Assembly (NCBI GenBank): GCA_028696455.1
Contig: JAQVGZ010000008.1
Coordinates: 1 to 57,202, forward strand
Direction of reading: 5' to 3'
Length of the DNA stretch: 57,202 nucleotides
Origin: Desulfotomaculaceae bacterium
GTDB taxonomy: Bacteria > Bacillota > Desulfotomaculia > Desulfotomaculales > Pelotomaculaceae
Part shown: one piece after another, positions 48,207 through 52,779 of the stretch
Layout of the letters: every line of letters starts with the position of its first letter
Position numbering within the stretch: position 1 is the stretch's first letter
The notes under the pieces: model-generated
Database searches by the model: none
Told to the model about the DNA's origin: nothing
The model's input: the letters and a program-made list of their open reading frames with translations, nothing else
Program-made: the position numbers and the translations under genes

Positions 48207-50882
48207 TTAGATTTTCTCAATTTTGATTGCGCAAACCTTATATTCACCTGTTTTAGTAACCGGGTCCAGCACAGCGCTGGTTAACGCGTTAGCCGGGCTG
48301 TTAGCATAGTGGAAAGACATCCATAACATTCCGGGCGGCACTCTGTCCGTAACCAAAATATTAGTAACACAATCCCCGCGCCGGGAAGTAACCTTAACTT
48401 TATCCCCAGTTGCAAGACCAAGTTTAGCAGCGTCATCAGGGTTCATCTCAGAAGCCTCTTCAGACCACATACTATGAATGCCCGGGGAATATGGTGTGGT
48501 CACATTATAATGATACAGGATCCTGCCGGTGGAAAGCAGGAATGGGTATTCATCGTCCGGCACTTCTCCCGGTGGAATATGATCGATGCCCTGAAATAAT
48601 CCTTTACCCCGGGTAAATGCTCCAGCGTGTAAAAAGGCAGTGCCCGGGTGCTCACTGGTTGGACATGGCCACTGGATTCCATCCGATTCGAGTCGCTGAT
48701 AATTTATGCCCGCCAGGCTCGGGGTTAGGGATGCCATCTCAGTCCAGACTTCCTCAGGGGTGGCATAGCTCATCGGATAACCCATTCGCTGGCTTAGTTT
48801 AATTACAGTCTGCCAATTTGCCAGGACAGGCAGCGGCTCAATTGCTTTGCGAACCCGCTGCACACGGCGTTCGGTACTGGTAAAGGTCCCCTCCGTCTCA
48901 GCAAAACTGGCTGCTGGCAGGACCACATCGGCGTATTCCGCAGTCTCGGTGAGGAATAATTCATGGACTACCAGGAAATCGAGCTTCTCCAGGCCGGAGC
49001 GGATATGATTGCTATTGGGATCAGTCAGGACCGGGTTTTCGCCAAGGATATACATAGCCTTAAGCTCCCCCGTATGAGCCTTTTCAAACATATCCGCGAT
49101 TACCAGGCCGGGGTTTTCAGGCAGCGACACCCCCCAGGCCTCTTCGAATTTCGCCCTGACAACCGGGTCGATTACTTTCTGATACCCTGAAAATACGTTG
49201 GGCAAGGCGCCCATGTCACAGGCTCCCTGCACGTTATTTTGCCCCCGGAGTGGGTTTACACCGGTGCATGGCCGTCCCAAATGCCCTGTCAACATCGCCA
49301 GATTGGCAATACTCATCACGTTGTCAGTACCGCAAATGTGCTCGGTTATGCCCAGGGTATAAAACAACATAGCCTTGTCCGTAGTTGCATAAAGGCGAGC
49401 TACCGCGTAAAGGTCCTCCACAGGGACACCGGTTATGCTGGAGACCACATCCGGCTGGTAATCCTTAACGGTTTTTGCCAGCGCTTCGAAGTTTTCGGTG
49501 CGCTCACTAATGAACTGTTGATCCTGAAGGCCTTCCTGCAAAATAATGTGCATTATCCCGTTCAATAAAGGAATGTCCGTACCAGGCTTAAGGCGCAGCC
49601 AGTAGTCAGCTATTCTCGCCAGGTCCGTGCGGCGCGGATCAACCACGACAAGTTTTGCGCCTTTGCGCTTGGCTTCCCGCATTTTATAGCCAATAACCGG
49701 GTGTGCTTCCGTAGTATTAGTACCGATTAGAAACAACATTTCGGCATCTGGAATTTCATTGATGGAGTTAGTCATGGCGCCGCTGCCAAAAGTTGTGGCC
49801 AGACCAGCCACAGTGGGAGCGTGTCAGGTACGGGCACAATGATCAACGCTATTGGTACCCATCACCGCCCTTGTAAATTTTTGAACCAGATAATTTTCCT
49901 CATTGGTACACCTGGCGGAGCTAAGGGCGGCAAAAGCATCCGGTCCGTACTGCTCCTTAATCCCTTTGAGGCGATTGGCAATCAGGTCCAGTGCTTCGTC
50001 CCAGGTCGCAGGCATAAATTCCCCGTCCTTTTTGATTAGGGGTGTGGTAAGCCGCTTTTCGTTTTGTACGAAGTCCCAGCCATAGTGCCCTTTGACGCAC
50101 AGAGCACGGCCATTGACAATACTGGTCCGGTTCGCTGTCACCCCAGTAATCCTGCCATCTTTGACGTTCAGGTCAAAATTACAGCCCGTACCACAGAAGG
50201 GGCAAGTGGTTTTAACTTTTTGGACCTCCCAGCGACGCCCCTGACGCTTCATCTGTTTTTCAGTCAAAGCGCCGGTTGGGCAAACTGTAACACAGTTGCC
50301 GCAAAAGACACATTCTGAATCCACATAGGTAGAGTCAAGAGCGGTTGCCGGCTTGACGTCGAAACCCCGGTAGATAAAGTCCAAATTGTGGATACCTGTC
50401 CACTCATCACAAGCACGGATACATTTGCCGCATTGAATACACTTATTAAGATCCCGAATAATAAAGGAGTTATTTTCTTCGATCACGTAATCGTGTCTCT
50501 CTCCTTGGAAGGTACTTTCCTTAACCCCATATTTATAGCAGTATTCCGCCAGGCCACAATCGCCTAATTTCTCACAGATAAGGCAATCAAGCGGGTGATT
50601 GGAAATCAATAAATTAAGCGTAGTCCGCCTGGATTCAATTACAACCGGAGATTCAGTTTCTACTACCATACCCGGCGACACAGCAGTTACACACGCGGGC
50701 ACAAGGCTACGGGCTCCTTTCACTTCGACCATGCACAGCCGGCACGCTCCAACTGGACTCAAGTCATCGTCATAGCATAGCCGCGGGATATCGATTCCTA
50801 TTTTCTCGGCAGCTTTGAGGATTGTGGTCCCTGACTGAACTTCTACCTCCCTGCTGTTAATAGTCAGCTTTACAAGATTCAT
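48207..50882 (-). CDS. fdhA: Formate dehydrogenase alpha subunit, selenocysteine-containing (UGA at 49,824-49,826)
   Basis: The two halves of this gene are in one frame, separated only by a TGA in the context VDHCART-U-HAPTVAG, the standard formate dehydrogenase active site. Read through, the protein has 891 residues with Sec353. The N-terminal NuoG-like part has a [2Fe-2S] ferredoxin domain (CYDDDLSPVGACRLC), a His-ligated cluster (HPLDCLICEKLGDCGL), two [4Fe-4S] sites (CIQCGKCIRAC; CVFCGNCVTVCPTGAL), and then CPFCGTGC. The molybdopterin domains follow (LRGQNNVQGACDMG). It interconverts formate and CO2 using Mo or W. GGGAGGAGAG precedes the ATG. A presumed Moco/Tuco riboswitch precedes it. 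No NuoE/F-like partner is adjacent. Confidence 0.92.
49794..49826 (-). promoter_or_regulatory. UGA codon and SECIS element in formate dehydrogenase
   Basis: The UGA (49,826-49,824) is followed after 11 nt by a stem UGUGGC/GCCACA with loop UGGUCUG. The apical GGUCU is the same SelB-binding feature as in E. coli fdhF, and the spacing is in the normal bacterial range. This supports selenocysteine insertion rather than a stop. Confidence 0.85.
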
Positions 50883-51045
50883 AGATACTCTCCTCCCAAG
50901 TGATTATATTAACCTGTTTTGGTTTAGATTTTTGCTAAATGCCCGGCTATTATTGCCGTGATCAGTTTACCACGCTAGTTCCCTTTTAGTGGTCACATCA
51001 TCTATCTACATCATGACCCCCATAAAGTTAAATCAATCCCTGCCA

Positions 51046-51083
51046 AATAAAAAGGCCGGTGCGGAAAATGCACTCGGCCTTTA
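51046..51083 (-). terminator. Intrinsic terminator of the formate dehydrogenase leader
   Basis: On the minus strand GGCCGAGTGC pairs with GCACCGGCC (one bulge) around AUUUUCC, followed by UUUUUAUU. It lies between the presumed aptamer and the gene, so it should act as the expression platform. Confidence 0.85.
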
Positions 51084-51109
51084 AAAACATCAGTTTCATA
51101 CAACGTCAG

Positions 51110-51212
51110 TTAACCAAATCCTTTCCACATTGGGAGGCATACCCTTTTCAAGATATACCTATCGGTCTGTCGCCATAGCTTTGATGTTACCACAGGCGGT
51201 TAGACTCGGATT
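51110..51212 (-). promoter_or_regulatory. Presumed Moco/Tuco riboswitch aptamer, copy 1
   Basis: The minus strand contains CCGAGTCTAACCGCCTGTGG, GCTATGGCGACAGACCGATA, GTATGCCTCCCA and GGAAAGGATTTGGTTAACTG in order. The CCGCCUGUGG, GACCGAU, GCCUCCC and GGAAAGG blocks agree with my memory of the molybdenum/tungsten cofactor RNA motif, and the 5' and 3' ends (GTCTAACC, GGTTAACTGAC) can pair as P1. It precedes a molybdopterin enzyme. The class call is by recall, not a model search. A closely similar copy is at 52,370. Confidence 0.75.
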
Positions 51213-51350
51213 GTTATATGCAATTATTATGACTATGATGGTGACACAACAAATTTTGGTTAAATCTCTTAAACGAGTAATTCTTCATTAAACAGACAAA
51301 ATCCTGCTAAAAATTTTATTTTGGATCAATTTTTTTAATTGACAGTCAAG
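51213..51350. repeat. Upstream part of the duplicated leader
   Basis: The similarity with copy 2 extends past the aptamer, with ATTCTTCATTAAA, TCCTGCTAAA and TTTTTTAATTG shared (51,277-51,345 and 52,543-52,605). The promoter should lie here on the minus strand, with a possible TATAAC -10 near 51,215-51,220, but no confident -35 is seen. Confidence 0.5.
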
Positions 51351-51506
51351 TACAAAAAATTATGCCAAAACAAGCCGGCTATTATATTGCGCTCAAAGGC
51401 AGGTGGCATATGGGGAAGCAGGCATAATCAGCAAGAATAGGATGGTGAAAAATTAGAGAGTCTGGAAATAACAAAGAGACGTTATTTCCAGACTCTCTTT
51501 ACATAT

Positions 51507-51743
51507 TTAATCAGACGATGAGACGAGCTCAAGAATTTTTGAAGGATTAAATCCTACCACAATCTCATCACCGAGTAGGAACGCCGGCACTCCGCGTACA
51601 TTCCTTTTAATTAACTCAGACCTGGCCTGCTCATCAGCACTAATATCCTTTTCAATGAAGTTGATTTTGTTTTTGGAAAGGAACTCTTTCGCCGTCTTAC
51701 AATGCGGTCAGGTTTTTGACGTAAACATAATGATATCCTTCAT
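51507..51743 (-). CDS. Glutaredoxin-like selenoprotein, UxxC active site (UGA at 51,708-51,710)
   Basis: An ATG at 51743 with AGGGAGG upstream opens a frame with one TGA at codon 12: MFTSKT-U-PHCKTAKEFL. Read as Sec the 78-residue protein has a complete thioredoxin fold of the glutaredoxin/NrdH type, with GVPAFLLGDEIVVGFNPSKI containing the cis-Pro (V-P-A) and G-F turn. The usual CxxC is UxxC here. The frame continues intact for 66 codons after the UGA, which a dead gene would be unlikely to keep, and a SECIS-like stem follows. Such proteins reduce disulfides or peroxiredoxins. The gene lies after the 85-nt element B and the 122-residue gene. Confidence 0.88.
51676..51710 (-). promoter_or_regulatory. 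UGA codon and SECIS-like hairpin in the glutaredoxin-like gene
   Basis: Seventeen nucleotides after the UGA, GAAAG pairs with CUUUC around the loop AGUUC. A G at the second loop position and this spacing meet the usual rules for bacterial SECIS elements. The stem is short, so it is weaker evidence than in the formate dehydrogenase gene. Confidence 0.65.
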
Positions 51744-51814
51744 AAACAAACCTCCCTAATTTAATATTAGTATTATATGCTAACTATTGTAAACTGCTTA
51801 TCATTCTTTATCTA

Positions 51815-51904: not shown

Positions 51905-52273
51905 TTAGGCGCGGTGTATCGCAACCTTTTCACCGTAGTAAGTATTTTGCGCCCTGAACCACTGTTTAAAATCTAAATCAGCAATTAGCGATAATATACT
52001 ATCGAAATCTTCTACAGGGTAACTAAACATAAATTTATACAGTTCATACTCTGATTCCGCGGAGGGAATATAAACCTCATCATCATACTGATATTTCTCC
52101 ATTCTTCTGAGGATGACATGATCATCAGGCTGCGCTTTGACATAATCTATGAAATCTTTCATGGTTTTTTCAGATATTATGTTTCTTTCATCGTCAGGGA
52201 AGGGCTCAAATAGTTTTCTCCTTTTTTCCTCCATTTTTTCTAAATAATCGGCAATCTTATTTTTCATACCCAT
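51905..52273 (-). CDS. Orphan 122-residue protein behind a presumed Moco riboswitch
   Basis: GGGAGGT precedes the ATG at 52273. The protein is acidic and helical: IADYLEKMEEKRRKLFEPFP, EKTMKDFIDYVKAQPDD, YELYKFMFSYPVEDFDSIL. No cofactor motif or cysteine pattern is visible. It is the first gene after the second riboswitch and lies upstream of the selenocysteine glutaredoxin. From context it may help assemble a Mo/W enzyme or protect it, but no family is recognised. Confidence 0.65.
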   Translation of the reverse strand: MGMKNKIADYLEKMEEKRRKLFEPFPDDERNIISEKTMKDFIDYVKAQPDDHVILRRMEKYQYDDEVYIPSAESEYELYKFMFSYPVEDFDSILSLIADLDFKQWFRAQNTYYGEKVAIHRA

Positions 52274-52315
52274 GTATTATTACCTCCCATGAAATTAATC
52301 AATAGCCTGCCAAAC

Positions 52316-52347
52316 AAAAAAGCCGGTGCGGAAAATGCACTCGGCCG
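52316..52347 (-). terminator. Intrinsic terminator of the second leader
   Basis: GGCCGAGTGC and GCACCGGC pair around AUUUUCC, followed by UUUUUUG. It matches the terminator at 51,046-51,083 in sequence and position. Confidence 0.85.
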
Positions 52348-52369
52348 TTAAAAACGTCAGTTATACACA

Positions 52370-52473
52370 TCAGTTAACCAAATCCTTTCCGCATTGGGAG
52401 GCATACCCTTTTCAAGGAATACCTATCGGTCTGCCGCCATAGCCTTTATACAGCCACAGGCGGTTAGACTCGG
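52370..52473 (-). promoter_or_regulatory. Presumed Moco/Tuco riboswitch aptamer, copy 2
   Basis: The blocks CCGAGTCTAACCGCCTGTGG, GGCTATGGCGGCAGACCGAT, GTATGCCTCCCA and GGAAAGGATTTGGTTAACTG are conserved with copy 1. Differences are concentrated in loops: GTAACATCAAAG becomes CTGTATAAAGG, and GCGACAG becomes GCGGCAG. This supports a conserved RNA. It controls the 122-residue gene and possibly the glutaredoxin-like gene behind it. Confidence 0.75.
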
Positions 52474-52779
52474 ATTATTATATGTAGTTTTTAGAATAAA
52501 AAAACAAAATAAGTTGGTATTATATTACTAAACCTAGTTATTCTTCATTAAAAAAGCAAATTCCTGCTAAAGAATTTTTTTAGATGAATCTTTTTTAATT
52601 GCCTGATCTTTTATTTCTAATCTCAAGAGACCCCTGAATTATTTCAGGCATGTTACACTTTGTTTACCTTTCCCGGGGGCTTGCGCCATTATCAGGTACA
52701 TTCGTTTATTATCGGATTTATCCGATATGAGAAGGAGTTGGCATTCTGTCGTTCGATAAACTCCAGCAGTTCATTTCAT

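Follow-up and report, generated by a model that had tools for sequence, protein, structure and literature searches.

The minus strand of the window (the whole stretch of 57,202 nucleotides that was analysed) almost certainly carries a functional gene for a 78-residue oxidoreductase of predicted glutaredoxin fold, in which a single in-frame TGA codon specifies selenocysteine (Sec). The evidence supports a predicted UxxC selenoprotein belonging to a selenoprotein family already known from anaerobes. An earlier sequence-only reading of this DNA had called the selenoprotein hidden, which holds for gene callers that treat TGA as a stop but not for the biology, the family being known. The gene thus adds a well-supported predicted selenoprotein, overlooked by such gene callers, in a Pelotomaculum-type genome.

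The gene and its signals

The features of the gene, all on the minus strand, are as follows.

51507..51743, minus strand: Sec-glutaredoxin gene, from ATG (51743-51741) to TAA (51509-51507); 78 residues, 79 codons with the stop
51708..51710, minus strand: in-frame TGA, the predicted selenocysteine codon; residue 12, first position of U-P-H-C
51751..51756, minus strand: Shine-Dalgarno sequence GGGAGG, 7 nt ahead of the glutaredoxin ATG
51676..51690, minus strand: predicted upper stem-loop of a bacterial SECIS element; stem 51690-51686 / 51680-51676, loop AGUUC 51685-51681
51455..51498, minus strand: intrinsic terminator directly 3′ of the glutaredoxin gene; 19-bp perfect stem followed by AATTTTT

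Read-through translation of the minus strand gives MKDIIMFTSKT-U-PHC-KTAKEFLSKNKINFIEKDISADEQARSELIKRNVRGVPAFLLGDEIVVGFNPSKILELVSSSD, with the U-P-H-C motif at residues 12–15 and exactly one in-frame TGA, at codon 12. A plus-strand reading of the same frame runs into stops and yields no protein. The terminator behind the stop codon has a folding energy of −30.4 kcal/mol (z −9.2 in comparison with shuffled sequences) and was also found in the terminator scan. The 79-codon frame, the strong ribosome site and the one TGA at the first position of a CxxC motif, all claimed previously, are confirmed here, and the strand, which had been left unstated, is the minus strand. An open frame with one TGA is by itself worthless as evidence, because the window holds 94 stretches between stops that are 70 codons or longer and contain exactly one TGA. 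It is homology, the pairing of Sec with Cys and the conservation of a hairpin across 66 UGA-containing homologues that raise this gene above chance.

Protein identity and predicted fold

The window protein matches the Pfam glutaredoxin family PF00462 (6.7e-15) with 55.5 bits against a curated cut-off of 22.9, which settles in the affirmative the HMM check proposed earlier. Its top sequence match is cGrx1 of Clostridium oremlandii (phmmer, 9e-22), and among named relatives the closest (76%) comes from Pelotomaculum sp. PtaB.Bin104. The AlphaFold model (pLDDT 85) presents the order strand-helix-strand-helix-strand-strand-helix, i.e. a thioredoxin/glutaredoxin fold, and its best Foldseek match is again cGrx1 (7c10), with 51% identity over 73 columns, a TM score of 0.87 and an rmsd of 1.2. 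The prediction that a thioredoxin fold continues past the UGA is therefore borne out by the Pfam match, by the structural match to cGrx1 and by the conservation of the protein beyond the UGA.

The cGrx1 of Clostridium (Alkaliphilus) oremlandii (PDB 7c10/7c12/7c13) resembles the window protein in fold, in its U/C-P-H-C active site and in length, although 49% of the residues differ. It is a native selenoprotein, with the catalytic Sec located in a U(or C)PXC motif (PMC7642778). The Sec-glutaredoxins of Geobacter, Moorella and Alkaliphilus (PMC1794560, PMC13188914) have PF00462, UxxC, UGA-encoded Sec and a downstream bSECIS in common with the window protein; unlike them, it is placed in a clade whose members mostly bear a C-terminal zinc ribbon. 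Among NCBIfam models the best is the YruB family TIGR02196, which aligns to residues 4–74 (E 5.5e-19), yet the score of 68.4 bits lies below the curated cut-off of 88.55 for membership. The Uxx-star model NF041212 likewise gives 47.5 bits, below its cut-off of 66. Uxx-star proteins (NF041212 and relatives) are small (seleno)proteins that resemble glutaredoxins and have their Sec at the corresponding position of the motif, and their described motifs include UxxT (PMC13188914), whereas the resolving Cys of UxxC is invariant in a 27-sequence alignment of the relatives of the window protein.

Homologues and selection

Homologues were gathered from the family, the class and the phylum together with named records, aligned with read-through of the UGA, and freed of duplicates. 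At the codon corresponding to the window UGA, 66 distinct homologues have TGA and 18 have TGT or TGC, and conservation of the protein extends to either side of this position. The sequence-only reading had made its case depend on this among other points, namely Cys or Sec at the UGA position and conserved protein beyond it. Two homologues from the same genus exemplify the pairing: one (L057, 77% identical) has TGA at the same codon, and the other (L035, ~77% identical) has TGT.

The TGT of the latter, together with the draft status of the source genome (estimated contamination 2.8%), is what might speak for a sequencing or assembly error, the true codon being TGC or TGT and the product a plain Cys glutaredoxin. 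Such an error would have to be repeated at the same codon in independent genomes, in 66 distinct sequences that include the same-genus L057, and we regard it as extremely improbable.

For codons 13–75, simple Nei-Gojobori estimates give dN of 0.125 and 0.107 against L057 and L013, respectively, with dS >1.6 and thus near saturation. These values indicate that the codons after the UGA are under purifying selection.

The hairpin downstream of the UGA

The hairpin GAAAG-AGUUC-CUUUC starts 17 nt after the UGA and spans 18–32 nt after it. It has a 5-bp stem and a 5-nt loop with G at the second loop position, and 22 nt lie between the UGA and the loop. The bSECIS model (PMC13188914) describes a loop of 3–9 nt, a stem of 4–16 bp, a G in the first two loop positions, a distance of 16–37 nt from the UGA and a minimum free energy of −7.5 kcal/mol or lower. 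The window hairpin agrees with this model in all the geometric respects but not in energy, which is −4.4 to −5.1 kcal/mol for stretches of 39–45 nt; at −3.2 kcal/mol for a 30-nt stretch, it is the weakest among the 66 hairpins. Folded as a single sequence, it shows no stability beyond that of shuffled controls (−3.2 to −5.1 kcal/mol, z about 0), and RNAalifold, applied to the alignment of homologues, returned no consensus pairs.

Since neither single-sequence folding nor RNAalifold gave a signal, the hairpin was assessed instead by counts of named pairs with controls and by codon usage. The residues encoded over the hairpin, A/V-K-E-F-L-S, are themselves conserved, and for this reason the choice among synonymous codons was examined. 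In the first 48 distinct Sec genes, and with kinship among the sequences inflating these codon counts as well as the pair and loop counts below, Leu in the hairpin is CTT or CTC in 48/48 (17% elsewhere in the same genes), Glu is GAG in 41/41 (29% elsewhere), Ser is TCN in 45/45 and never AGY (57% AGY elsewhere), and G is the third base of the A/V codon in 47/48. Across all 66 genes the synonymous identities at residues 18–23 are 0.90, 0.50, 1.00, 0.78, 0.78 and 0.35, compared with a mean of 0.42 elsewhere, the control being other codons of the same sequence pairs. There is therefore an excess at residues 18, 20, 21 and 22, and hardly any, if any, at 19 and 23.

In 43 distinct sequences, 87% of hairpin cells are paired, against 82% in shuffles and 32–69% when the hairpin is slid along the alignment, and compensatory double changes occupy 19 cells against 5.5 in shuffles. 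Clear compensations are GCGAAAG..CUUUCGC versus GUGAAAG..CUUUCAC, and GCAAGAG..CUCUUGA. Among Sec homologues 63/66 have the loop G, against only 7/18 among Cys homologues, the median energy of the 30-nt stretch is −7.75 kcal/mol for Sec and −2.5 kcal/mol for Cys homologues, and all five inner pairs are kept in 4/18 of the latter. From the near-frozen synonymous codons, the covarying pairs and the absence of the hairpin from most Cys homologues, the hairpin is judged to be a real bacterial SECIS element, convincing only in comparison and not in the single sequence. The SECIS-like hairpin that had been proposed 17 nt downstream thus stands as to its distance and its comparative conservation, while it gives no single-sequence signal and misses the energy limit. 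A SECIS that is weak in a single sequence can, as here, be verified through synonymous-codon freezing together with covariation.

The weakness of the window hairpin, the least stable of the 66 and no better than shuffles when folded singly, is also what would be expected if the gene were a decaying selenoprotein or glutaredoxin pseudogene, in which the UGA would leave an 11-residue product and the hairpin would have lost the ability to recruit SelB. However, the window copy retains the hairpin codons GCG, GAG, CTT and TCC and the loop G, and its frame is intact to the TAA, with a good ribosome site and a clean terminator. The dN/dS estimates above led us to reject this reading, to which we assign a very low probability, in favor of a functional selenoprotein gene.

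Selenocysteine machinery and other selenoproteins

The genome of the window contains tRNA-Sec with anticodon UCA (TCA in DNA; contig C42), adjacent genes for SelA (600 bits) and SelB (339 bits) on contig C36, and SelD (399 bits; G000:C40:5303-6229, minus strand; L095). The earlier suggestion to look for selA, selB, selC and selD in the rest of the genome has accordingly been answered with all four. The selD gene (L095) holds one in-frame TGA, which probably makes SelD another selenoprotein, a situation with precedents in other bacteria. Two full-length SelB genes of 640 aa each were observed, on C36 (L093) and on C64 (L094), the second adjoining a formate dehydrogenase fragment, along with one tRNA-Sec. 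Three SelB matches occur in another genome of the genus (G006), and the extra SelB is for that reason probably not contamination.

Formate dehydrogenase had been cited as another Sec protein of this DNA, correctly: the alpha subunit FdhA (window 48207-50882, minus strand; 891 aa) has a UGA-encoded Sec at residue 353. Read-through of this one TGA gives VDHCARTUHAPTVAGL, and a strong E. coli-like hairpin with a GGUC loop (−17.7 kcal/mol) follows the UGA. Gene callers would split fdhA in two. A second UxxC Sec-glutaredoxin (L002, contig C37) also has U-P-H-C and is 40% identical to the window protein.

The existence of Cys homologues at the UGA position could alternatively be taken to mean that the UGA specifies Cys or Trp instead of Sec, whether by way of a suppressor tRNA or of a variant genetic code. 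Against this, the genome has a canonical tRNA-Sec(UCA), SelA, SelB and SelD, the tRNA loci examined carry ordinary anticodons, and the hairpin is conserved where the UGA is and is missing from most Cys homologues. We therefore hold decoding as Cys or Trp to be highly improbable. Decoding as Sec, and with it the proposal of a functional selenoprotein in a selenium-using cell, is supported, as a prediction, by the machinery, the homologues, purifying selection and the conservation of the hairpin.

Proposed mechanism

The gene, the Sec machinery, the RNA element, the predicted fold and the active-site residues can all be read from sequence. We propose that SelB and Sec-tRNA would bind the hairpin and read the UGA as Sec. 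The selenolate of Sec12 would be the attacking nucleophile and Cys15 the resolving thiol, as described for cGrx1, and a selenenylsulfide/dithiol cycle might then reduce protein disulfides or similar oxidised substrates. A thioredoxin-reductase-like electron donor is no less likely than glutathione, because a search with one model (TIGR01435) found no bifunctional GshF-type glutathione synthetase in the genome. The role proposed for cGrx1 is that of reductant of Sec-MsrA (PMC7642778). In contrast to the pairing in that proposal, the search for a Sec-MsrA partner in the genome of the window returned a single MsrA match, which has no in-frame stop or UGA.

The zinc-ribbon clade and the history of Sec and Cys

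A tree of 78 proteins was calculated with the Sec/Cys column left out; it rests on few columns and is unrooted, so it gives no direction of change. In this tree the window protein falls in a 24-row clade (SH-aLRT 96) with 23 Sec and 1 Cys. A C-terminal C-x2-C...C-x2-C ribbon of the MJ0042 / Zn_ribbon_4 type is present in most of its members, although the ribbon scores are near but below the curated cut-offs of these models. Ribbon-bearing Sec-glutaredoxins are L013, L014, L015, L063-L066, L096-L100, L103-L105, L107, L108 and L110. The window protein and L057, its nearest relative, both stop short of the ribbon, and the second Sec-glutaredoxin of the genome (L002) lies in the other, ribbon-less clade. 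No NCBIfam model reaches its cut-off for the window protein or for the ribbon-bearing L013, and no paper on a selenoprotein glutaredoxin with a zinc ribbon was found in the open-licence literature.

At least 8 changes between Sec and Cys are needed on the tree, 4 of them forced by well-supported branches. In four Cys homologues (L035, L037, L109 and L118) the SECIS survives in full or for the most part, suggesting a recent replacement of Sec by Cys with a relict SECIS; alternatively, the SECIS-like hairpin in these four reflects conservation of the amino acids there. What is new here is the clade of 23 Sec and 1 Cys, mostly with a zinc ribbon, and the apparent relict SECIS in some Cys homologues, while the Sec-glutaredoxin family itself is known. 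We give roughly even chances to the view that this mildly novel clade around the window gene represents an unnamed Bacillota subfamily, in which Sec-glutaredoxins typically have a C-terminal zinc ribbon and Sec is nearly fixed, the ribbon having been lost in several members including the window copy, and some glutaredoxins having reverted from Sec to Cys with a relict SECIS. If so, the ribbon form would have a redox or zinc-sensing function of its own.

Genomic context

The Sec-glutaredoxin gene is located between two Moco/tungsten riboswitches, of which one precedes fdhA and the other a 122-aa gene. Together with the leaders that flank them (window 51019-51340 and 52286-52600, minus strand), the riboswitches represent a duplicated stretch with 71–88% identity. 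The neighbours of the glutaredoxin gene are not conserved in close relatives, and the 122-aa gene occurs in a same-genus relative (L127) with no glutaredoxin gene beside it; an operon role with formate dehydrogenase was therefore not adopted. The 122-aa protein (window 51905-52273, minus strand), encoded upstream of the glutaredoxin, has no Pfam or NCBIfam match and appears to be genus-restricted, being present in 1/112 other genomes of the class, that of L127. At the L127 locus, Moco riboswitches flank the 122-aa gene, with moeA- and mobB-like genes, as identified by eye, nearby.
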